A stretch of DNA of 64,000 bases from Microbacterium sp. LWO12-1.2 (GTDB lineage: Bacteria; Actinomycetota; Actinomycetes; Actinomycetales; Microbacteriaceae): positions 2,294,001 to 2,358,000 of the forward strand of contig NZ_JBEGII010000001.1 in assembly GCF_040675875.1 (NCBI RefSeq). Direction: 5' to 3'. Under the pieces are notes generated by a model. It ran no database searches and was not told the origin of the DNA. It was given only the letters and a program-made list of their open reading frames with translations. Below are positions 5,726 to 27,856 of the stretch, in pieces. The first letter of the stretch is position 1. Every line of letters starts with the position of its first letter. The position numbers were made by a program, and so were the translations under genes.

Positions 5726-6564
5726 ACGCGTACCGGCAGGATGACTGGGACGCGAGCCCGGAGCATCCGTCGACCGTGGTCGCGCCGTATCTGATGGGGA
5801 CAGGTGTCGTCACCGGAGACGACACCGGCACCCGCCCGCTCTCCCCTCCGCACTCCCACGCCGACGCGATGCTCGCCTGGTGCTACCGCGGCACCGTGTG
5901 GGTGCACCTGCAGGACGCGATGTGGCGCCTCGCTCCCGGCCAGGGCGTCTGGATCCCCGCACGGACGCCGCACACGGCACACCACGAGCGGGACTCCGTC
6001 GGCTGCTACACCTATCTGCCCGCGACATCCGCGATCGCACCGATCGATGACATCACCCGGGTCCTCGTGCCGCGGGCCGTGCAGGAGATGCTGCTGCATC
6101 TCGGCATCAACGACATGCCCACCGACCTGCGCGTCCGTATCCAGTCCACGCTGATCGAGATGCTGCAGCAGCCGGCTCCTGAGGCACTCGACGGCTGGGG
6201 CGAGGTCCCGCTGCCCACCGACGAGCGCGTGCGCGCCCTGGTGCAGGCGGTGCTGGACGATCCGGGCGACCAGCGCAGCGCCGGCGAGCTCTTCCTCGCC
6301 CACGGCCTGCACGAGCGCACCGTCCTGCGCATCTTCCAGAACGACGTCGGCATGACGTTCGGCCGGTGGCGCACCGGCGTGCGGATGACCCTCGGCGCCC
6401 GCCTGATCGTCGACGGCACCCCGATCGGCGCTGCCGCCCACCGCTGCGGCTACGCCACGACCAGCGCCTTCTCCGCGAGCTTCAAGGAGCGGTTCGGACT
6501 CACGCCGCGTCAACACGTCGCCCGCGTGCAGGCCGACTCCGCGCACCACCTCTACTGGCGCTGA
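5722..6564 (+). CDS. AraC-family regulator with N-terminal cupin
   Basis: 280 aa. The N-terminal cupin-like sensor (SHADAMLAWCYRGTVWVHLQ, then PGQGVWIPARTPHTA) is followed by a C-terminal double helix-turn-helix including GYATTSAFSASFKERFGLTP. The start at 5722 overlaps the preceding TGA. It sits between a pump-type TetR regulator and the siderophore operon, so it could act on either. Family members such as YbtA sense siderophores, but nothing in the sequence proves that ligand here. Confidence 0.83.
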   Translation: MNAYRQDDWDASPEHPSTVVAPYLMGTGVVTGDDTGTRPLSPPHSHADAMLAWCYRGTVWVHLQDAMWRLAPGQGVWIPARTPHTAHHERDSVGCYTYLPATSAIAPIDDITRVLVPRAVQEMLLHLGINDMPTDLRVRIQSTLIEMLQQPAPEALDGWGEVPLPTDERVRALVQAVLDDPGDQRSAGELFLAHGLHERTVLRIFQNDVGMTFGRWRTGVRMTLGARLIVDGTPIGAAAHRCGYATTSAFSASFKERFGLTPRQHVARVQADSAHHLYWR

Positions 6565-6659
6565 CTCTCGCGCCCATCCGACGCAATCTGTCCGTTTCGC
6601 GACACAAGTCGTCCGTCGATCGACACTGGCCAGGGCATCCGCGTTCTAGCATCGTTCTG

Positions 6660-6678
6660 TTAGGGCATGCTTACCTAA
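6660..6678. promoter_or_regulatory. DtxR/IdeR-type iron box
   Basis: TTAGGGCATGCTTACCTAA matches the 19-bp DtxR/IdeR consensus (TWAGGTWAGSCTWACCTWA) at 16 of 19 positions. It lies 54 bp before the siderophore-binding-protein start, next to a possible -10 TAGCAT at 6647. Predicted result: repression of the 6732-15103 operon when Fe(II) is plentiful. Confidence 0.85.
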
Positions 6679-6731
6679 CTTCTCGCCGCGTTGACGCGGC
6701 ACTCCCCTCCCCATCTCTCTGAAGGAGAACC

Positions 6732-7799
6732 ATGTCGCACGCTCTCGCGCGCCCGAAGATCCGGCGAGGCTCCGCGCTCGTCGCCGCGGCCATCGCCGCC
6801 GCTCTCACCCTGGCCGGGTGCTCGACCACCGGCGACAGCGCCGAATCCGCCCCGTCGTCGACATCCACCGACGGCGTGGTCATCGAGCACGGCCACGGCG
6901 AGACCGTGATCCCCGAGAAGCCCCAGCGCGTCGTCGCCCTCGGCTGGATGACGCCCGACATCGTCGCCGCCCTCGGCACCAACCCCGTCGGCATCGAAGA
7001 GGTCTGGGGCGCCGGCGAGAGCGGCTACCAGCCCTGGTTCGAGGACTTCGTCACCGAAGAGTACGGCGAGACCCCCGAGATCATCCCGTTCACCGAGGAC
7101 GGCCCCAACTACGAGGCGATCAAGGCCCTCAAGCCCGACCTGATCCTCAGCCTGTACTCCGGCGTGAGCGACATCGAGTACGAGCGCCTCAGCGAGATCG
7201 CGCCGACCGTGCCCTACATCGAAGGCCCCTGGAACCCCGGCACCTGGGAGGGCATGACGCGCACCGTCGGCAAGGCGCTGTCGGAGGATGCCAAGGCCGA
7301 AGAGCTGATCGCCGAGACCGAGGAGCAGATCACCACCCTCGCCGGCGAGCATCCCGAGTTCCAGGACAAGACCTTCGTCTGGGGCCTGACCCTGAACGAG
7401 GGCGGCACCGACCTCGGCGTCTACCTGGAGTACGACCCCCGTGTACGCATCACCGAGGCGCTCGGCTTCACCTCCACCTCCTCGATGGACAGCTTCCTCG
7501 CGAGCGCCGAGGGCGACAACTGGTACACCGGCGTCAGCCTGGAGAAGCTCTACGACGTGCAGGCCGATCTGTTCGCCGCCTGGGGCAGCACCGCAGCCGA
7601 GGGCGAGTACACAGTCGAGAACAAGGTCGTCTCGCGCTGGAACCCGATCGCCAACGGTTCCTACGTGATCTACGCGGATGCCGCAGAGGCCTCCGCGATC
7701 AGCGCCCCGACCGTGCTGTCGCTGAAGTACATCCTCCCGAAGTACGTCGACGACCTCGCAGCCGCGCTGCAGGGCGAGCCGACCATCGCAGGAGAGTGA
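6732..7799 (+). CDS. Iron-siderophore ABC transporter substrate-binding lipoprotein
   Basis: 355 aa. Arg-rich signal peptide with lipobox LAGC (Cys at residue 36), then the FecB/TroA-like periplasmic-binding fold: HGETVIPEKPQRVVALGW, then IKALKPDLILSLYSGVS. First gene of the iron operon. It should capture ferri-siderophores outside the cell and deliver them to the two FecCD permeases downstream. Good Shine-Dalgarno (gaaggagaacc). The siderophore cannot be predicted; no siderophore biosynthesis gene is visible, so the compound may be made elsewhere or scavenged. Confidence 0.9.
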   Translation: MSHALARPKIRRGSALVAAAIAAALTLAGCSTTGDSAESAPSSTSTDGVVIEHGHGETVIPEKPQRVVALGWMTPDIVAALGTNPVGIEEVWGAGESGYQPWFEDFVTEEYGETPEIIPFTEDGPNYEAIKALKPDLILSLYSGVSDIEYERLSEIAPTVPYIEGPWNPGTWEGMTRTVGKALSEDAKAEELIAETEEQITTLAGEHPEFQDKTFVWGLTLNEGGTDLGVYLEYDPRVRITEALGFTSTSSMDSFLASAEGDNWYTGVSLEKLYDVQADLFAAWGSTAAEGEYTVENKVVSRWNPIANGSYVIYADAAEASAISAPTVLSLKYILPKYVDDLAAALQGEPTIAGE

Positions 7800-18905: not shown

Positions 18906-18981
18906 TGGACGCGACGGCGGGAGTCGAACCCGCAACGCCAACAGGTATGAGCTGAGGCCCGGGACCGCCCGGATCGCCGCG
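18906..18981 (-). tRNA. tRNA-like sequence (76 nt with CCA), possible degenerate tRNA-Met(CAU)
   Basis: Read on the minus strand the 76 nt include a 7-bp acceptor stem (CGCGGCG with CGTCGCG, one G-U), discriminator T and an encoded CCA. The T arm is perfect (GCGGG-TTCGACT-CCCGC) at standard positions 49-65. The middle holds a CCGGG-CGGT-CCCGG hairpin in place of the D arm and a CAG-CTCATAC-CTG hairpin whose loop would present CAU after T33. Against a normal tRNA: A instead of T8, non-standard D arm, only 3 continuous anticodon-stem pairs. It is either a decayed tRNA or a non-canonical tRNA-like RNA. Confidence 0.45.
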
Positions 18982-20931: not shown

Positions 20932-21531
20932 ATGTCGACTGCAGCAGCCGTCACACGCCGTGAGCGGAACAAGCAGCAGAAGCTCGAGCGGATCACCGCG
21001 GCAGCCGCCGAACTCTTCGCGGAGCGCGGCATCGACGATGTCACGACGCAGCAGATCGCCGAACGGGCGGATGTCGGCACCGGCACGCTGTTCCTCTACG
21101 CCAAGACCAAGGGCGAGCTCCTGCTGCTCGTGCAGAACGCCCACTACGCTGCCGCGCTCGAGTCGGGCATCGCGACGGCCGCGCGCATCTCGGACACTCT
21201 CGATGCGCTCATGGCGCTGCTGCGTCCGATCTTCGAGTGCAACCGCGTGCAGATCGACAACGGTCGCGTCTACGTGCGCGAGATGGTGTTCGGCGATCCC
21301 ACGGATGCGCACCACGCCGAAGCGCTGCGCATAGTCGCGGAGACGGAGGAGGCGGCTGCCGCCATCCTGCATCGCGATCCCGCGATCGCCGAGGACGACG
21401 CCGCCTCGCTGGCGCGGATCGTCTCGGCGATCATGTTCCTGACGATGGGTGCGAGCATCAACGTCGGCCTGAGCATCGACGAACTCGCCGACGACGTGCG
21501 CCGACAGATCGGCGCCCTGCTCGCCCGCTAG
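20932..21531 (+). CDS. TetR-family regulator, divergent from SDR/oxidoreductase
   Basis: 199 aa. N-terminal helix-turn-helix at ~13-60 (ERITAAAAELFAERG, then VTTQQIAERADVGTGTLFLY). The effector domain has no recognised ligand. The perfect operator at 20896 overlaps its promoter region, so autorepression plus control of the SDR-oxidoreductase pair is likely. Its stop lies 3 bp before the beginning of the duplicated 3'-end repeat at 21535, so the cassette boundary directly abuts this gene. Confidence 0.87.
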   Translation: MSTAAAVTRRERNKQQKLERITAAAAELFAERGIDDVTTQQIAERADVGTGTLFLYAKTKGELLLLVQNAHYAAALESGIATAARISDTLDALMALLRPIFECNRVQIDNGRVYVREMVFGDPTDAHHAEALRIVAETEEAAAAILHRDPAIAEDDAASLARIVSAIMFLTMGASINVGLSIDELADDVRRQIGALLAR

Positions 21532-21534
21532 TAC

Positions 21535-21619
21535 CTACCGCCGGATCGAGTCCTGGAACGGGTTCGGCTCGAGCGTGTAGTCGGTTGAGGCGTCGGACCA
21601 GGTCCCCCCGTCGGCCGGC
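21535..21619. repeat. Left copy of 85-bp direct repeat flanking the RelA/SpoT gene
   Basis: Matches 22902-22986 at 84 of 85 positions in the same orientation, 1,367 bp away. It lies in the 3' coding end of the DUF6716 family gene. Confidence 0.9.
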
Positions 21620-21660
21620 AGGCGTCGGCGGCGCAGCGCGGCGAGCGCTCCGGTGACCGG
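21535..21660 (-). pseudogene. Orphan 3'-end copy of the DUF6716 gene
   Basis: Encodes about 42 C-terminal codons homologous to the end of the intact gene at 22902 (VTGALAALRRRR, then the identical tail DASTDYTLEPNPFQDSIRR and stop). There is no plausible start and no upstream homology, so this is a gene fragment. The last 85 bp match the intact copy except one base; further upstream the match drops to scattered differences. It marks the left boundary of the RelA/SpoT cassette. Confidence 0.85.
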
Positions 21661-21799
21661 AACGCCGAGCACACTCGAAGGGTGCTGCTCGACGACTCTC
21701 CTGAGTGCAGACCATAACGTCCGTGACCCCGTGGACTGAGTCGCGCCGGACGCCCCGGAGCGCATCGACGGCCGACGGCTGCCACCCAGTCCGCGAGCA

Positions 21800-22843
21800 C
21801 TAGTTGAGCGGGACCCGACTGCGATAGTCCTGGAATACTCTGTCCTCCTCCGGATACTTATCCGAGGCGTATCGAGCACTTGCGATAGCGAGGCCCGTAC
21901 GAGCTAGACCTATAGGGGAAAACAAGTAGAGCCCATCGTCCTCACTTTGGCCAGGCGGGTACTCGGACTCATACTCGTATGCGAGAGCGAGGACGGGCGT
22001 AAGCAGATCATCGAGCTGCTCGACCGTCTCAACACCGAGCTCGCTGATCTCCTCTACAAGGTCAGATACCGCCCATTCCTCGACCGGCCTTATCGCTTGA
22101 CGCTCTCGCATCTTCAAGACGAGATAGGCCTGCACAGTAGAGCGATCAATGGGCATGTCAATCCACAGAGAAGCAGAACTCGACGTCTCAGTGATGAGGA
22201 TGGCCGCCTCCTCATCCGCGCGACGTGACCGTTCAGCGAGGATCTCGAAGTGCGAGTCGGCGATGTGGAACAACGCGGCCAACGCATGGAAATCGCGCTT
22301 CAATGCCCTCGGAATACTCGCTTCACCTTTATAGGCGAGATGGTGAGAGACATTCGCCCACGCATCCATCAAGATGGTCCGGCATTGTATTTCGAACGCA
22401 AGTCCGTGAAGTCCCTCATACCTCGGACCGGCGCTCGTCGCGGGTAGACGACAGACGTAGTGGACTGACATATAGCCGAACGCCTCGCTTGGCCCGGAGT
22501 TGACTTTGTCCTCATGTTCGATCACTTCGAACAGAGACTCTACGACTTCGCCAAGCTTCGGCAGATCGGAGGCATAAAGGCACACGATTCTCGCCCCGAC
22601 GAGGTCTTGCACCTCGCTCTGCGGATCGTTGTAGTTCTTGCGAGCGATCTTCTCCAGATAACTGGTCTGATCCTTCACTCGGACGGTCACTCCGTGCAGC
22701 TTGATACCTGAACTGCTCAACGCGTGGGCCAGCGCGAATTGCACTTCTGTCGCAAGCCGCTCGAGCGATGGAAGCTGGTTTTTGTAGTGCTGCTCGGCGT
22801 CAAAGGGCACGCGTTCGCCTGCGCTTTTACCATTCGATGTCAC
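21800..22843 (-). CDS. RelA/SpoT-domain (p)ppGpp-synthetase-like protein in a transferred cassette
   Basis: 347 aa, GTG start. The RelA_SpoT nucleotidyltransferase domain spans ~25-175 with all usual landmarks: RVKDQTSYLEK (55-65), catalytic Asp in QDLVGARI (79-86), substrate-binding Tyr in GYMSVHY (123-129), EIQCRT (151-156) and Trp162. There is no HD hydrolase, TGS or ACT domain, so it is not a housekeeping Rel. The ~135-residue acidic C-terminal extension is unlike RelQ/RelP. Visibly lower GC and rarer codons than neighbours, and direct repeats on both sides, indicate horizontal gain. Relatives include toxSAS toxins and CapRel-type phage sensors, but no antitoxin gene is adjacent; function is open. 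Confidence 0.85.
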   Translation of the reverse strand: MTSNGKSAGERVPFDAEQHYKNQLPSLERLATEVQFALAHALSSSGIKLHGVTVRVKDQTSYLEKIARKNYNDPQSEVQDLVGARIVCLYASDLPKLGEVVESLFEVIEHEDKVNSGPSEAFGYMSVHYVCRLPATSAGPRYEGLHGLAFEIQCRTILMDAWANVSHHLAYKGEASIPRALKRDFHALAALFHIADSHFEILAERSRRADEEAAILITETSSSASLWIDMPIDRSTVQAYLVLKMRERQAIRPVEEWAVSDLVEEISELGVETVEQLDDLLTPVLALAYEYESEYPPGQSEDDGLYLFSPIGLARTGLAIASARYASDKYPEEDRVFQDYRSRVPLN

Positions 22844-22849
22844 CCCTGA

Positions 22850-22855
22850 ACCCTA
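22850..22855 (-). promoter_or_regulatory. TAGGGT -10-like box, leaderless start of RelA/SpoT gene
   Basis: On the minus strand TAGGGT, 6 nt, then GTG at 22843. The cassette gene therefore carries its own promoter with the host's leaderless spacing, inside the 58-bp gap to the upstream gene. Confidence 0.5.
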
Positions 22856-22901
22856 TCGGGCGACGAGTGCGGGACGGGTTTGGTCGCAGCGCCCACGCGC
22901 G

Positions 22902-22986
22902 CTACCGCCGGATCGAGTCCTGGAACGGGTTCGGCTCGAGCGTGTAGTCGGTGGAGGCGTCGGACCAGGTCCCCCCGTCGGCCGGC
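22902..22986. repeat. Right copy of 85-bp direct repeat
   Basis: The 3' end of the intact DUF6716 gene; 84/85 identical to 21535-21619. Confidence 0.9.
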
Positions 22987-24332
22987 TGGCGTCGCCGCCG
23001 CACCGCGGCGAGCGCACCCGTGAACGGAACACCGACCGCGAGCGCCGCCACTCCCTGCACCGTGCGATCTTCGGCGCCGAGCACGCTCGCGCGATGCCAG
23101 GCGTCATGCAGCGCGCCGCCGCGTGCCGCCGGTAGGCGCTTCGGCGGCAGCGCCCCGGCCCGGCGCAGGGCGACGAGCTGCTCGACTCGCTCCCACCACG
23201 TCGACTCGGATTCGGGGTGGAAGTAGTTGTCGCGCAGCCAGTCCGGATGCGGATGCCGGAACCGCCCGGCGACGACCTCGCTCCGCCCGCCGAGGAGCCC
23301 ACTGCCGACGAACACGGTGTTCAGCAGGCTCTTGCTCACGCCGAACGAGTCGAGCGCGATCACAGGGATGCCGAGCGCAGTCGCCTCGATCGCCGCCGTG
23401 GAGCTCACGGTGACGAGCCCTGCCGCGCTGTCGAGTGCCGATGCCATCGACTCGTAGGAGAAGACCAGGTTCTCGGGCCGCCGCTCCGGCAGCAGCTCCG
23501 CATACGGCGCGCGCTCGAGGTGCGTCTCGGACTCGCCCGGCCGGGAGCGCAGCTTCACGACCACGCGCCTTCCCGGATCGGCCTCGGCCGCGCGCACCAG
23601 CATCGCCGCGATCTCGGCACGTTCCTCGCGCTCGACCGGGACGAGGGCCTGCGCGGCGAACACGATGTCGGTGGCCGGGGGTCGCACCGCGACCGGCGTC
23701 GGCGGACGTTCGGCCACCACGACCGCGCCCTGGCTCCGCGCCACGGCATCCACACGCACGTGCTCCGGCTTCAGCATCCGCTGTCGCCGCCGCGCAAAAG
23801 GCAGCGTCGCGAGCGCCGTGGGAAGGGGGACGCCGATGCGCCGCCCGAGCTCCGCGAAAGCACGCTCCTCGCGGTGGGAGTGCAGGATGAGCAGGTCGGT
23901 GTGCCGGCGATACTCCAGGGCGCCGCGCTGCGCGGGTACGGCCATGCCCGGCAGCCCGGAGATCGTGACGGGTCGGTGCGTGAGGGTGTCGATCACTCGA
24001 CCCAGCAGCCGCACGAACGGCCCGCGTCCGGCGAGCAGCACGACATCAGGCCGCTGCCCTTCCAACCAGGCCTGCACCTCGGTGAAGCGCACCCGAGTGA
24101 CCGCATCCGCCGCCAGGCCGGTGCCGGCGAGTGCCGTGCGCTGCTGATCGACGCTCGCCGTCAACGGTGTGCGCACCAGCAGCAGGTGCGCACGGATGCC
24201 CGGCACCGAGCCGAGCAAGGAGGCGGACCACTTCACGAAGGAGTCTGCGTCGGCGATCGCGACGACCCGCAGACCGTCGCGGTCCAGGCGGCCGCTCGTC
24301 ATGGATTCCCCGCTCATGGATTCTCCGCTCAT
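22902..24332 (-). CDS. DUF6716-type putative glycosyltransferase
   Basis: 476 aa. Resembles the actinobacterial DUF6716 group of GT-B-like proteins found in capsule or sialic-acid loci: VVVKLRSRPGESETH, then the donor-site-like LVTVSSTAAIEATALGIPVI and ALDSFGVSK. Last gene of the nonulosonic-acid operon. The start at 24332 overlaps the NeuB stop (ATGA). The first ten residues are a perfect tandem duplication (MSGES MSGES, then MTSG), giving three in-frame ATGs at 24332, 24317 and 24302. The 3' end is duplicated at 21535. Specific transfer reaction unknown. Confidence 0.78.
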   Translation of the reverse strand: MSGESMSGESMTSGRLDRDGLRVVAIADADSFVKWSASLLGSVPGIRAHLLLVRTPLTASVDQQRTALAGTGLAADAVTRVRFTEVQAWLEGQRPDVVLLAGRGPFVRLLGRVIDTLTHRPVTISGLPGMAVPAQRGALEYRRHTDLLILHSHREERAFAELGRRIGVPLPTALATLPFARRRQRMLKPEHVRVDAVARSQGAVVVAERPPTPVAVRPPATDIVFAAQALVPVEREERAEIAAMLVRAAEADPGRRVVVKLRSRPGESETHLERAPYAELLPERRPENLVFSYESMASALDSAAGLVTVSSTAAIEATALGIPVIALDSFGVSKSLLNTVFVGSGLLGGRSEVVAGRFRHPHPDWLRDNYFHPESESTWWERVEQLVALRRAGALPPKRLPAARGGALHDAWHRASVLGAEDRTVQGVAALAVGVPFTGALAAVRRRRQPADGGTWSDASTDYTLEPNPFQDSIRR

Positions 24333-25201
24333 GCGGTGACGCGACGCAGCTTCGCCATGGGGGCGCGCTCGCTGTCGAAGACGCGCTTGACGCCGTCCCC
24401 CAGAGCGGTCTCGATGACCCGGATGTCGCGCACGAGGTGCTCGAGCCCCGTCGGCTCCAGCGAGGCCGCGTGATCGGAGCCCCACATCGTGCGGTCGAGC
24501 GTGATGTGCCGCTCGACCGCGACCGCGCCGATGGCCACGGCTGCCAGCGAGATCTGCAGTCCGCGCTCGTGCCCCGAGTAGCCGATCGGGATACCGGGGT
24601 AGCGGTCACGCAGCGTGGCGATCGCCCGGAGGTTCGCCTCCTCCGGCTCCAGCGGATACGTGGAGGTCGCGTGCATGAGCACCACCCGGTCGGTGCCGAG
24701 CGTCTCGAGCGCGCGGTCGATCTGCGCGATCGTCGACATGCCGGTGGAGAGGATCACGGGCTTGCCGGTCGCCCGCAGCGCCTGCAGCAGCTCGGTGTCG
24801 GTGAGGCTGGCCGAGGCGACCTTGTGAGCGACCACGTTCAGGTCTTCCAGGAAGTCGACGCTCGGCACGTCCCACGGCGAGGCGAACCAGTCGAGCCCCT
24901 GCAGCGTGGCGTGGTCGCCGATCGCGACATACTCGTCACGCCCGAATTCCACCCGGCGGCGGTAGTCCAGGTAGCTCATCGTGCCCCACGGCGTCTCGCG
25001 CGGCACGTCGCGCATGTGCTCCGGCGTGGAGATCTCGGGGGTGCGCTTCTGGAACTTCACCGCATCGGCGCCTGCACGCGCGGCGACGTCGATCAGACGC
25101 TTGGCGATGTCGACATCACCGTTGTGATTCAGTCCGATCTCGGCGATGACGTAGGCGGGATGACCGCCTCCGATGACGCGCGATCCGATGCTGACAGTCA
25201 T
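24329..25201 (-). CDS. neuB: NeuB-type nonulosonic acid synthase, lacking the C-terminal SAF domain
   Basis: 290 aa. TIM-barrel NeuB signatures: VIAEIGLNHNGD (~18-29), DAVKFQKRTPE, LSTGMST, ATSTYPLEPEE, GYSGHE and a closing ITLDRTMWGSDHAASLEP. Condenses phosphoenolpyruvate with a mannose-type sugar to a nonulosonic acid. Typical bacterial NeuB is ~345 aa with an antifreeze-like SAF domain that covers the neighbouring active site; here the protein stops right after the barrel. Good Shine-Dalgarno (ccggaggaatc). Substrate form (free or 6-phosphorylated sugar) is discussed under the NeuA-HAD fusion. Confidence 0.88.
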   Translation of the reverse strand: MTVSIGSRVIGGGHPAYVIAEIGLNHNGDVDIAKRLIDVAARAGADAVKFQKRTPEISTPEHMRDVPRETPWGTMSYLDYRRRVEFGRDEYVAIGDHATLQGLDWFASPWDVPSVDFLEDLNVVAHKVASASLTDTELLQALRATGKPVILSTGMSTIAQIDRALETLGTDRVVLMHATSTYPLEPEEANLRAIATLRDRYPGIPIGYSGHERGLQISLAAVAIGAVAVERHITLDRTMWGSDHAASLEPTGLEHLVRDIRVIETALGDGVKRVFDSERAPMAKLRRVTA

Positions 25202-25272
25202 GATTCCTCCGGTCGTCGAGCGGTCTGAAATCCCCGCCCCTCCTGGCTACGCCTCGCGGGTGAACACCATGC

Positions 25273-25297
25273 GACCGGGGAGTTACCGGCACCGGTC
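25273..25297 (-). other. Hairpin in the NeuA-NeuB gap
   Basis: The 94-bp gap 25202-25295 is the only sizeable gap within the operon. GACCGG (25273-25278) pairs with CCGGTC (25292-25297), overlapping the NeuA-HAD stop. It may tune downstream expression; no promoter is evident. Confidence 0.35.
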
Positions 25298-26498
25298 AGC
25301 TCGACAACACCCGCTCGATGAGCTCCCGCACGGCCCCATGCCCTCCGCGCCGGGTGAGCACCGCACGCGCTTCCTCGAGCACGAGCGGATGCGCGTCGGC
25401 GACGGCCACCGGCCACCCCACGATCCGCATCGCAGGAAGGTCGTTGACGTCGTTGCCGAGGTAGGCGATGTCGGCCAGCGCGACGCCGACCTCCTCGGCC
25501 CATCCGCGCAGCGCCGACTCCTTGTCGTCGATGCCGTGCAGCACGGGCACCCGCAGCTTCTCGGCCCGCGACCGCACCACCGGGTTCACCTCGGTGGAGA
25601 GGATCAGCATCGGCAGCCCGGCCCGGCGCAGCAGCGCGACCCCCATCCCGTCCTCGCGGCTCACCCGCACGCGCTCGCGCCCGTCCGCATCGACGAGGGC
25701 GGTGTCATCGGTGTGCACGCCATCGAAGTCGGTCACGACCGCCTGCACGTTCATCCGCTCGACCGCATCATGCCGCACAGCGAGCGCCCTGGCGATCCCG
25801 AGCTGCTGGTCATCGTCGATCTCGATCGCCGACCACTCCGGGACCTCGGCGATGCGGATCCGGCCGAAGAAACGATGCCGGCTCTGGCGGAATCCCGCGA
25901 CACGGAACACATAGAACGCGCCGGTCTCGAGGTGGTGCGGCTCCCGATCCTGACGCCGGGGACGATGGGCGGCCTCGTGGTTGACCGCGACCGCCACCTC
26001 GTCCGCATCCTGACGCCAGAGGAAGCCGTAGGTCTCGTACGCCGAGAACACGCTGTCGGCACGATCCGCCGCGACCTCGGCGACGGCGGCGGCGAGCGCG
26101 TCGCTCGGGATGAACGGGGACGTCGCCTGCAGGAAGGCCACGATGTCGTAGTGCTCGCCGGCGCTCTCCAGCTCGTCGAGCGCGTGCAGGATCGCGCTCT
26201 CGGACGACGCCGTGTCACCCGAGAGCTCGGCGGGGCGGTGGATCACCCGTGCTCCCGCGGATGCCGCGACGCCTGCGATCTCGTCGTCGTCGGTCGACAC
26301 GACGACCAGCTCGACGCCCGCCGCTGCAGCCGCTCTGACCGCGCGCGCGACCAGAGCCACGCCGCCCACGCGCTGCAGGTTCTTGCGCGGCACGCCCTTC
26401 GACCCTCCACGGGCCGGGATGATCGCCACGGTCCTCGGGGGTGCATCGGCCTGCGGGGACGCATCCGTCGTCACGTGCTCGTCGATCTCGGTCATCAT
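25296..26498 (-). CDS. neuA: CMP-nonulosonate cytidylyltransferase fused to HAD (KdsC-like) phosphatase
   Basis: 400 aa in two domains. Residues ~23-235 are an acylneuraminate cytidylyltransferase with the CTP loop IIPARGGSKGVPRKNL (26-41), STDDDEIA, the FLQATSPF motif and a late EIDDDQQLGIA. Residues ~245-400 are a HAD phosphatase: nucleophile Asp in VVTDFDGVHTDD, ILSTEVNPVVRSRAEKLRVP, and GNDVNDLPAM as motif IV. The fusion suggests the pathway passes through a 9-phosphate that the HAD half removes before CMP activation. Start at 26498 overlaps the upstream stop (ATGA); a second ATG follows at once. Confidence 0.87.
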   Translation of the reverse strand: MMTEIDEHVTTDASPQADAPPRTVAIIPARGGSKGVPRKNLQRVGGVALVARAVRAAAAAGVELVVVSTDDDEIAGVAASAGARVIHRPAELSGDTASSESAILHALDELESAGEHYDIVAFLQATSPFIPSDALAAAVAEVAADRADSVFSAYETYGFLWRQDADEVAVAVNHEAAHRPRRQDREPHHLETGAFYVFRVAGFRQSRHRFFGRIRIAEVPEWSAIEIDDDQQLGIARALAVRHDAVERMNVQAVVTDFDGVHTDDTALVDADGRERVRVSREDGMGVALLRRAGLPMLILSTEVNPVVRSRAEKLRVPVLHGIDDKESALRGWAEEVGVALADIAYLGNDVNDLPAMRIVGWPVAVADAHPLVLEEARAVLTRRGGHGAVRELIERVLSS

Positions 26499-27856
26499 CG
26501 TCCTCGCATCACTCGCCACACTCGTCCTGCGCGGTTGCGCGCTCCGAGAGCCGTCAGCCGCCACTGCTCCACCCGTCCCGCTCCCCCGGCGGAGCGCAGC
26601 ATCCGTCGTACCGGGCCCTCCACCGGCGCACCGGGCAGACGCAGGAGCGACAGACGTTCGGGGGCGAAGTAGCGGTCGCGCTCAGACGCGTCCAGCGTGC
26701 GCAGCAGCAGTTCGGCACGCGGTCGCAGGTGTACCGCGATCTCCGGCTGCATCGTGTGACCGACCGCGTCGATCAGCAGCTGGAGGCGTGCGGGATCCGC
26801 GTGCGCAGAGTCGTCGCGGGTGAGCGCATCGACCAGGACCAGGGGCACGCGGTTGCTGTTCTCGAACGGCGCCAGACCCGCGAGGAGGCGCGCCGTCCCC
26901 GCCGACCCCACGGGAATGCCGAGGGTCGCGCGCACCGTCGGCAGCGCGGTCGAGAACCCCGCCACCACGGCCACCGCATCGATCCGCTCTGCGAGCACCT
27001 CGGCGGGCAGCGCTCCGCGGTATTCGGCGTACTCGAGCCCGAGCGAGAGCGCCCGTTCCCGCACGGCGTCGGACTGCAGCGGCGGCGCTGCGGGGTGCGG
27101 CTTGAACACGACCCTCTGCGGCGACCAGGTCATCGCGCGATCGATCAGGTCACGGTGCAGGGCCGCCTCCTCGCGCACGGTCAGCAGCCCGAGCGCCGAC
27201 AGGTACTGGCCCAGCACGAGCGCGGTCGGCACCGTGTCGTCCAGCGCCGCACCCGAGGCATCGACCACCGGGGCGCCGGAATCGCTCTCGCGCAGCACCT
27301 GCTGGAAGCGCGCCGGCGGCACCGGGAGCGGGGTCGCGAAAGGCGATCCGACCAGCGGTCGCACTCCCGGCACCACGTCGGCGTAGACGACCTGCCCGAT
27401 CCGCGCGGCGACCGATCGGCCGAGCGCGACCCGCATCGGCGAGTACGTCATCAGTCCGTCACCGATGATCGACAGCCGTGCGCGAGGGAAGATCGACATC
27501 AGGGTGCGCGCCGGCGCGACCTGGGGACTCTGCACGAACAGCTCCAGGTCGTCGGGGTCGATGCCCCAGGCCCGTATGAACAGTCTCTCCAGCAGGGGCA
27601 GATCCGCGTCGGCCGGCTGCCAGTCGCTCGGATGCAGGGCTCCCAGCAGCGCCCCGAGGTCTTCGACGCGGTCGAATCGCCCACGCAGCGACTCCAGTGA
27701 CGGGTCGACACCGATGCCGACGACGGTCTCGGGCACCCGGGCCGACACGAAGGGCACGAGCACGCGGTCTGCGGAGTCGCCGAGGAGACCTTCGTCGATC
27801 GCCGCGGCGGCGGTCGCGAGTCCGTAGGCACTGTGCAGCGCGAACATCTGGGTCAT
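26495..27856 (-). CDS. Polysialyltransferase-family glycosyltransferase
   Basis: 453 aa. Begins MTQMFALHSAYGLATAAAAI, the N-terminal pattern of the alpha-2,8-polysialyltransferase family (PF07388), and contains FPRARLSIIGDGLMTYSP and VVFKPHPAAPP, the latter like the HP donor-binding motif of bacterial sialyltransferases. Likely polymerises or adds CMP-activated nonulosonic acid onto a cell-wall or capsule glycan. Overlaps both neighbours by ATGA, so tightly coupled to GT2 and NeuA-HAD. Family assigned by pattern, linkage unknown. Confidence 0.8.
   Translation of the reverse strand: MTQMFALHSAYGLATAAAAIDEGLLGDSADRVLVPFVSARVPETVVGIGVDPSLESLRGRFDRVEDLGALLGALHPSDWQPADADLPLLERLFIRAWGIDPDDLELFVQSPQVAPARTLMSIFPRARLSIIGDGLMTYSPMRVALGRSVAARIGQVVYADVVPGVRPLVGSPFATPLPVPPARFQQVLRESDSGAPVVDASGAALDDTVPTALVLGQYLSALGLLTVREEAALHRDLIDRAMTWSPQRVVFKPHPAAPPLQSDAVRERALSLGLEYAEYRGALPAEVLAERIDAVAVVAGFSTALPTVRATLGIPVGSAGTARLLAGLAPFENSNRVPLVLVDALTRDDSAHADPARLQLLIDAVGHTMQPEIAVHLRPRAELLLRTLDASERDRYFAPERLSLLRLPGAPVEGPVRRMLRSAGGAGRVEQWRLTALGARNRAGRVWRVMRGR

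Follow-up and report, generated by a model that had tools for sequence, protein, structure and literature searches.

The window, by which we mean the whole stretch of 64,000 nucleotides (nt) analyzed here (positions 2,294,001–2,358,000 of contig 1 of a Microbacterium genome of 4.1 Mb), contains an insert of 1,367 bp (21535–22901) that is bracketed by two 3′ ends of a DUF6716 gene and that holds a gene with a RelA/SpoT domain. The segment is an insertion, and the gene that it brought is foreign, solitary, and mobile. The features of the site are as follows.

20932–21531, plus strand: TetR-family regulator (Pfam TetR_N), the left neighbor of the insertion site, converging on DUF6716
21535–21668, minus strand: left repeat copy, an orphan DUF6716 3′ end of about 44 codons with its stop codon at 21535–21537
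21669–21799, no strand assigned: insert-specific DNA after the RelA/SpoT gene, absent from 246 other genomes of the genus
21800–22843, minus strand: RelA/SpoT-domain gene of 347 codons (synthetase domain, residues ~15–205; helical C-terminal domain, residues ~210–346)
22850–22855, minus strand: TAGGGT, a −10-like element 6 nt before the GTG in a leaderless layout (from the sequence, without a chance control)
22902–23035, minus strand: right repeat copy, the 3′ end of the intact DUF6716 gene
22902–24341, minus strand: intact DUF6716 gene for a putative glycosyltransferase (Pfam E = 2e-124), its start codon not settled

The insertion site and its empty counterparts

The RelA/SpoT-domain gene is open from a GTG codon at 22843 to a stop codon at 21800, and its inferred product matches Pfam RelA_SpoT (E = 3.9e-20) and no further domain. 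The initial annotation, which was made from the sequence alone, had called a single low-GC gene of 347 codons between the repeats, and both parts of that description hold. The guanine-plus-cytosine (GC) content of the gene is 0.564 (56% versus 70%) and that of its third codon positions (GC3) is 0.654, as compared with 0.72 and 0.88 for DUF6716 and 0.675 and 0.875 for the TetR gene, and it has the lowest GC content among the 22 open reading frames (ORFs) picked in 23 kb. The TAGGGT element was located as described, 6 nt before the GTG, in the pattern of the leaderless promoters of actinobacteria.

An 85-bp direct repeat, identical at 84 positions, had been reported at the borders. We recovered it (21535–21619 versus 22902–22986) and found that the alignable repeat extends over 134 nt at 93% identity (21535–21668 versus 22902–23035; BLAST E = 3.6e-54). 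Of the nine mismatches, one falls within the 85-nt block that ends at the stop codon and eight fall in the next 49 nt; in both copies the block of identity terminates precisely at the stop codon. If the mismatches were evenly spread, at most one would fall within the 85 nt with a probability of 0.0014, a value calculated for a boundary chosen post hoc. The two closest species match the repeat copies at only 76–78 of the 85 nt. Thus, the close match between the two copies is of recent origin, and natural conservation is rejected as its explanation.

The same two sister species (G260 and G207) display the empty site. Each has one uninterrupted DUF6716 tail and no insert, and the stop codon of the TetR gene follows after 4 or 12 nt (in the window, 3 nt separate the left repeat copy from TetR). 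Their flanks are 87%–91% identical to those of the window, and their DUF6716 genes are 92% and 91% identical, respectively, over nearly the whole length. Because the site is empty in both species, the segment is an insertion, as had been proposed, and a conserved duplication is rejected on the same grounds. At 29 further loci, TetR lies 6–46 nt from DUF6716 in nine cases and is not found within 1.5 kb in the other 20.

The left repeat copy had been interpreted as an orphan DUF6716 fragment with diverged codons upstream. The 3′ tail stands, but we could detect no DUF6716 coding sequence further upstream. When 21669–21799 was searched in three frames for likeness to the DUF6716 C terminus, none appeared among the matches listed, and the matches listed below the full orphan were those of shuffled controls only; therefore, the fragment is about 44 codons long. 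We also considered and rejected a longer fragment: the match of the region to DUF6716 residues 397/398–479 (59%–60%) is due to the 134-nt tail, and the part upstream of the tail does not rise above the shuffles. The DNA of 21669–21799 was itself found in one of 247 genomes of the genus, the window's own.

No integrase or transposase was seen between the repeats, in accord with the initial annotation: the ORFs of at least 80 codons overlap the RelA/SpoT gene or the repeats, and a Pfam scan of four overlapping ORFs was empty. A second DUF6716 tail was found, among the matches listed, in none of 148 other genomes of the genus by protein search (149 genomes, 89 with a DUF6716 match, a second tail only in the window's own) and in none of 289 others by DNA search (290 genomes, 137 with any match, many of these weak and short; three candidates scored per genome); the DUF6716 gene is absent from many genomes of the genus. 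As for a donor, no plasmid match to 21669–22901 was found, the DUF6716 tail had no phage match, and a 20-mer taken from it retrieved no viral contig. Set beside integrative elements that attach at the 3′ end of a gene, the segment has a border repeat of a gene 3′ end and an empty site; neither an integrase of its own within the repeats nor use of the same site in the genomes searched was found.

A relative of the gene has entered a second Microbacterium genome (G193), with a 152-codon gene on one side and a radical-SAM gene on the other. The matched flanks there are 1,182 nt apart, as compared with 42, 63, and 83 nt in G093, G020, and G024, and the family gene is the sole recognized gene of the insertion. 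We found no direct repeat at its borders, only weak repeats of 19–34 nt further out. As this insertion lies elsewhere and has no border repeat, members of the family evidently insert one gene at a time and at sites unrelated to one another, a pattern that speaks against an exchange mechanism dedicated to gene 3′ ends.

We also note that the insertion in the window adjoins, at its edge, a cluster of NeuB, cytidylyltransferase, and DUF6716 genes (22902–26564) that is probably a sialic-acid-like surface glycan locus. The sole tRNA gene found in the window, for tRNA-Met (18906–18981, minus strand), lies about 2.6 kb from the insertion, outside its borders.

Relatives of the gene and their carriers

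A profile scan yielded 26 entries, representing 22 distinct genes, with scores of 308–462 bits and alignments spanning almost the entire profile. Next came the protein of a Vibrio filamentous phage, likewise almost full length, at 248 bits; below it was a gap to 191 bits. Four loci of 172–191 bits were not counted in the family; two of these (L166 and L167) have nearly native GC content and neighbors in common with each other. Relatives of more than 50% identity occur in two of 295 genomes of the genus, the window's own and G193. Twenty-two genomes passed a threshold of E = 1e-14 in that search, the remaining matches being at most 37% identical and mostly limited to the synthetase part. At the level of the class, 57 of 394 genomes passed 1e-25, with scores above 400 bits only in the window's own genome and G427; 19 of 398 genomes passed at the family level, where such scores were again confined to two, the window's own and G798.

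In a tree of synthetase domains, the window protein clusters with its Microbacterium counterpart and with two proteins from metagenomes (support 100/99). Twenty-three family rows stand together at 99/82, and the rows for the Mycobacterium abscessus phage and the Vibrio phage fall outside, with host-type synthetases between; long branches (9.13 for CapRel) may join falsely in this tree. The labeled set (24 family rows and the Vibrio row) requires two label changes, and therefore we do not claim a single clade as proven.

We examined mobility in 15 cases, 14 family loci with surrounding DNA and the Vibrio phage, and direct signs of it were present in ten, the two Microbacterium insertions included. 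In a Prescottella prophage (L072) genes for a head protease and a portal adjoin the family gene; a viral contig with a terminase carries another (L092); and an M. abscessus prophage carries a third (L108 and a second record). The Vibrio filamentous phage PQ189320 has its copy at 5944–6954 (L110), a near full-length profile match; at 8.1 kb, it is the smallest named phage genome here with a family member. A Streptomyces plasmid (L109) carries a family gene whose identical protein accession occurs in a second plasmid. In Actinomadura (L073, 9538–13376) a perfect 43-bp repeat at the 3′ end of a tRNA-Pro gene delimits about 3.8 kb with the gene; three other ORFs in the stretch gave no Pfam match, no integrase was recognized, and the whole looks like a decayed integrative element. 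An integrase piece near tRNA-Val and an insertion sequence (IS) ORF accompany the gene at L071, and a large serine recombinase, a resolvase, and a bSEFIR-like gene lie near it at L163, which, by its length of 34,887, we took to be on the same contig as L070. At L070 (8428–11083) the family gene comes directly after bSEFIR-like and PDC-M34A-like genes, and the L070/L163 stretch is a possible defense island. The initial annotation's suggestion of a mobile gene is thus borne out by relatives on phages, plasmids, and an apparent remnant of an integrative element.

The family gene had a lower GC content than the 5-kb flanks on each side at all 14 loci and was the lowest-GC ORF picked at ten of them. 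A TANNNT motif 6–7 nt ahead of a start codon close to the beginning of the ORF is present at five of the 14 loci, a count made without a chance control and leaving aside an instance at L074 that lies 99 nt inside the ORF. The gene had also been described as free of an antitoxin. Indeed, it is the one gene of the insert, and an all-versus-all comparison of 139 neighboring ORFs of at least 70 codons from 18 loci (14 of the family) revealed no conserved partner. The only neighbors in common among the family loci were an IS transposase ORF (L071 and L077) and ABC-transporter ATPases (L075 and L168), the latter very common genes, and an antitoxin partner was rejected on this basis. The conserved adjacent antitoxin gene of a two-gene toxic small alarmone synthetase (toxSAS) module was likewise not recognized at these loci.

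Catalytic core and C-terminal domain

The synthetase domain is RelQ-like, with RelQ and RelP as its nearest folds. Residue equivalences were set by alignment to RelQ and CapRel, and the roles of the RelQ residues lie partly behind the assignment of catalytic positions. R54, K56, S60, K64, R67, D79, R84, Y123, E150, Q152, and R154 are invariant or at least 90% conserved in an alignment of 42 sequences, all 42 of which match RelA_SpoT. The ATP-site R/K/S residues, the Mg aspartate, the G-loop tyrosine, and E.Q.RT that mark a small alarmone synthetase are thus present, whereas no HD hydrolase domain occurs among the 23 families listed for the 42 members, as the initial annotation had anticipated. 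The window protein is accordingly predicted from its sequence to be an active enzyme.

The acceptor loop differs from the common form: the family has (D/N)K...FGYMS where the common small synthetase of the genus has DYIA.PK.NGYKS. Besides this gene, the host encodes a long Rel (open frame of 755 codons) and a canonical-loop small synthetase. A separate group of short Microbacterium synthetases (L005, L055–L057, L059–L061, and L063–L066), sporadic in occurrence, has the loop DKGxLL...FGYRSVQ.

The unusual C-terminal extension noted at the outset corresponds to the helical domain of residues ~210–346, which, predicted alone, reached a pLDDT (predicted local distance difference test) score of 87.3. 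We found no convincing relative of this domain among solved structures. An initially suggested kinship with CapRel and toxSAS proteins was upheld for the synthetase domain only.

Proposed function and comparison with known systems

Our best inference is that the gene has an anti-phage role with a built-in regulatory domain. We judge the chances to be about even that 21535–22901 as a whole is DNA that was recently inserted by horizontal transfer and that carried a single gene, one for an anti-phage enzyme under its own control. As the family has another loop in place of the canonical acceptor loop, such an enzyme would take pyrophosphate from ATP and pass it to an acceptor different from the GDP/GTP that RelQ uses. 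By analogy with CapRel, its helical C-terminal domain would keep it inactive in the absence of a phage trigger, so that a separate antitoxin would be unnecessary, and the activated enzyme would arrest the growth of the infected cell. Several observations weigh against this proposal. The altered loop is not unique to the family, other short Microbacterium synthetases having DK...FGY with R or L in place of M, and the closest folds are RelQ and RelP, so that the protein may have a plain role in making guanosine penta- or tetraphosphate, (p)ppGpp. A regulatory role for the C-terminal domain is drawn from CapRel only, and toxicity, activity, and defense remain predictions from sequence. In addition, the scanned neighbors of the gene in the window are not defense genes, four loci (L075, L077, L081, and L162) lack a clear link to a mobile element in the stretch read, and L074 offers only a type IV restriction enzyme beside the gene.

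The gene could instead be a metabolic accessory, that is, a horizontally gained small alarmone synthetase serving as a stress-responsive source of (p)ppGpp, with an oligomerizing or allosteric C-terminal domain and with hitchhiking behind its association with phages. We consider this unlikely, given the replaced acceptor loop and a host already equipped with a long Rel and with a canonical-loop small synthetase; moreover, carriage by phages and plasmids and low GC content at every family locus fit defense-type cargo better. Alternatively, the gene may serve the phage or plasmid that carries it, through element maintenance or superinfection exclusion, the chromosomal copies being stranded and without benefit to the host. 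The carriers of the family, which include prophages, a filamentous phage, and plasmids, are in keeping with this idea, as is the inhibition of superinfection by the PhRel system of phage Phrann (described in the available text of PMC9712102). Yet the copies in the window and in G193 are open, although no phage gene was recognized among their scanned neighbors. This explanation, which differs from an anti-phage enzyme in the beneficiary and not in the mechanism, seems to us decidedly improbable.

The mode of entry is a separate matter, compatible with any function. A trans-acting integrase could have inserted a circular mini-element at the DUF6716 3′ end, regenerating the gene. The identity block does stop exactly at the stop codon, DUF6716 is regenerated intact, and the Actinomadura relative resides in a tRNA-anchored stretch. 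But no integrase was recognized in the insert, the three tyrosine recombinases of the genome are located elsewhere, and Pfam PF07508 identified no large serine recombinase in it. The repeat, moreover, runs on for 49 diverged nt past the identity block, no second tail was present among the matches listed for other genomes of the genus, and the other Microbacterium insertion is at a different site with no border repeat. We therefore find a mini-element doubtful, and the last two results also speak against the cassette swapping at a 3′-end repeat that the initial annotation had envisaged. Homology-facilitated illegitimate recombination is a possible entry route (available text of PMC3240628). The gene probably arrived on transferred DNA through recombination that was homology-assisted and in part illegitimate, or else was left behind by an integrative element; entry as an active cassette at the repeat is less favored. 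Genes of the family were inserted singly twice within one genus, and relatives show the empty site in both cases; this is a clean case of a defense-type gene reaching a chromosome with no visible machinery.

Returning to an anti-phage enzyme with built-in control, we tentatively suggest, while thinking it somewhat unlikely, that the family forms a separate class of one-gene immunity enzymes. Its members would use an acceptor other than GDP/GTP, carry a built-in helical sensor or antitoxin unrelated to the pseudo-zinc-finger of CapRel, occur in carriers as far apart as prophages of actinobacteria and a filamentous phage of Vibrio, and on plasmids and chromosomes too, and move as single genes. 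The difference in the acceptor loop makes the substrate directly testable.

Among catalogued families, the PADLOC candidate PDC-S33 (in which S presumably denotes a single gene) is a RelA/SpoT-type model of similar length (349 positions), but its match to the window protein is partial (51–175 of 349; E = 1.8e-10) and covers the synthetase part only, as do its matches to five relatives. PHROG 9640, a phage family with no assigned function, matches residues 19–280 of the window protein (E = 4.2e-36) and, by this similarity, probably represents the same family in phages. The name PDC-S33 was not found in the literature searched, which yielded nothing on M. abscessus together with prophage and GTP pyrophosphokinase and, in titles or opening abstract lines among the matches listed, no description of the family. 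Unlike RelQ and RelP, the window family has about 140 extra C-terminal residues and a replaced acceptor loop and is sporadic, GC-poor, and mobile. PhRel of Phrann is similarly a synthetase on an actinobacterial temperate phage; compared by description, it differs in needing an antitoxin gene, ATphRel (available text of PMC9712102), whereas no partner of the window gene was recognized.

A close parallel in architecture is CapRel, a fused toxSAS of phage SJ46 according to the available text of PMC9712102. Like genes of the window family, it is a single phage-borne ORF with an N-terminal RelA/SpoT synthetase, an added C-terminal domain, and no separate antitoxin gene. Its YXXY neutralization motif is absent from the window protein, and Y..Y occurs in eight of the 42 relatives at scattered columns, with at most four rows at any one column. 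If the C-terminal domain of the window family is a phage sensor, it would be a second fusion of sensing to an alarmone-type effector besides CapRel, and one that occurs even in an 8-kb filamentous phage.
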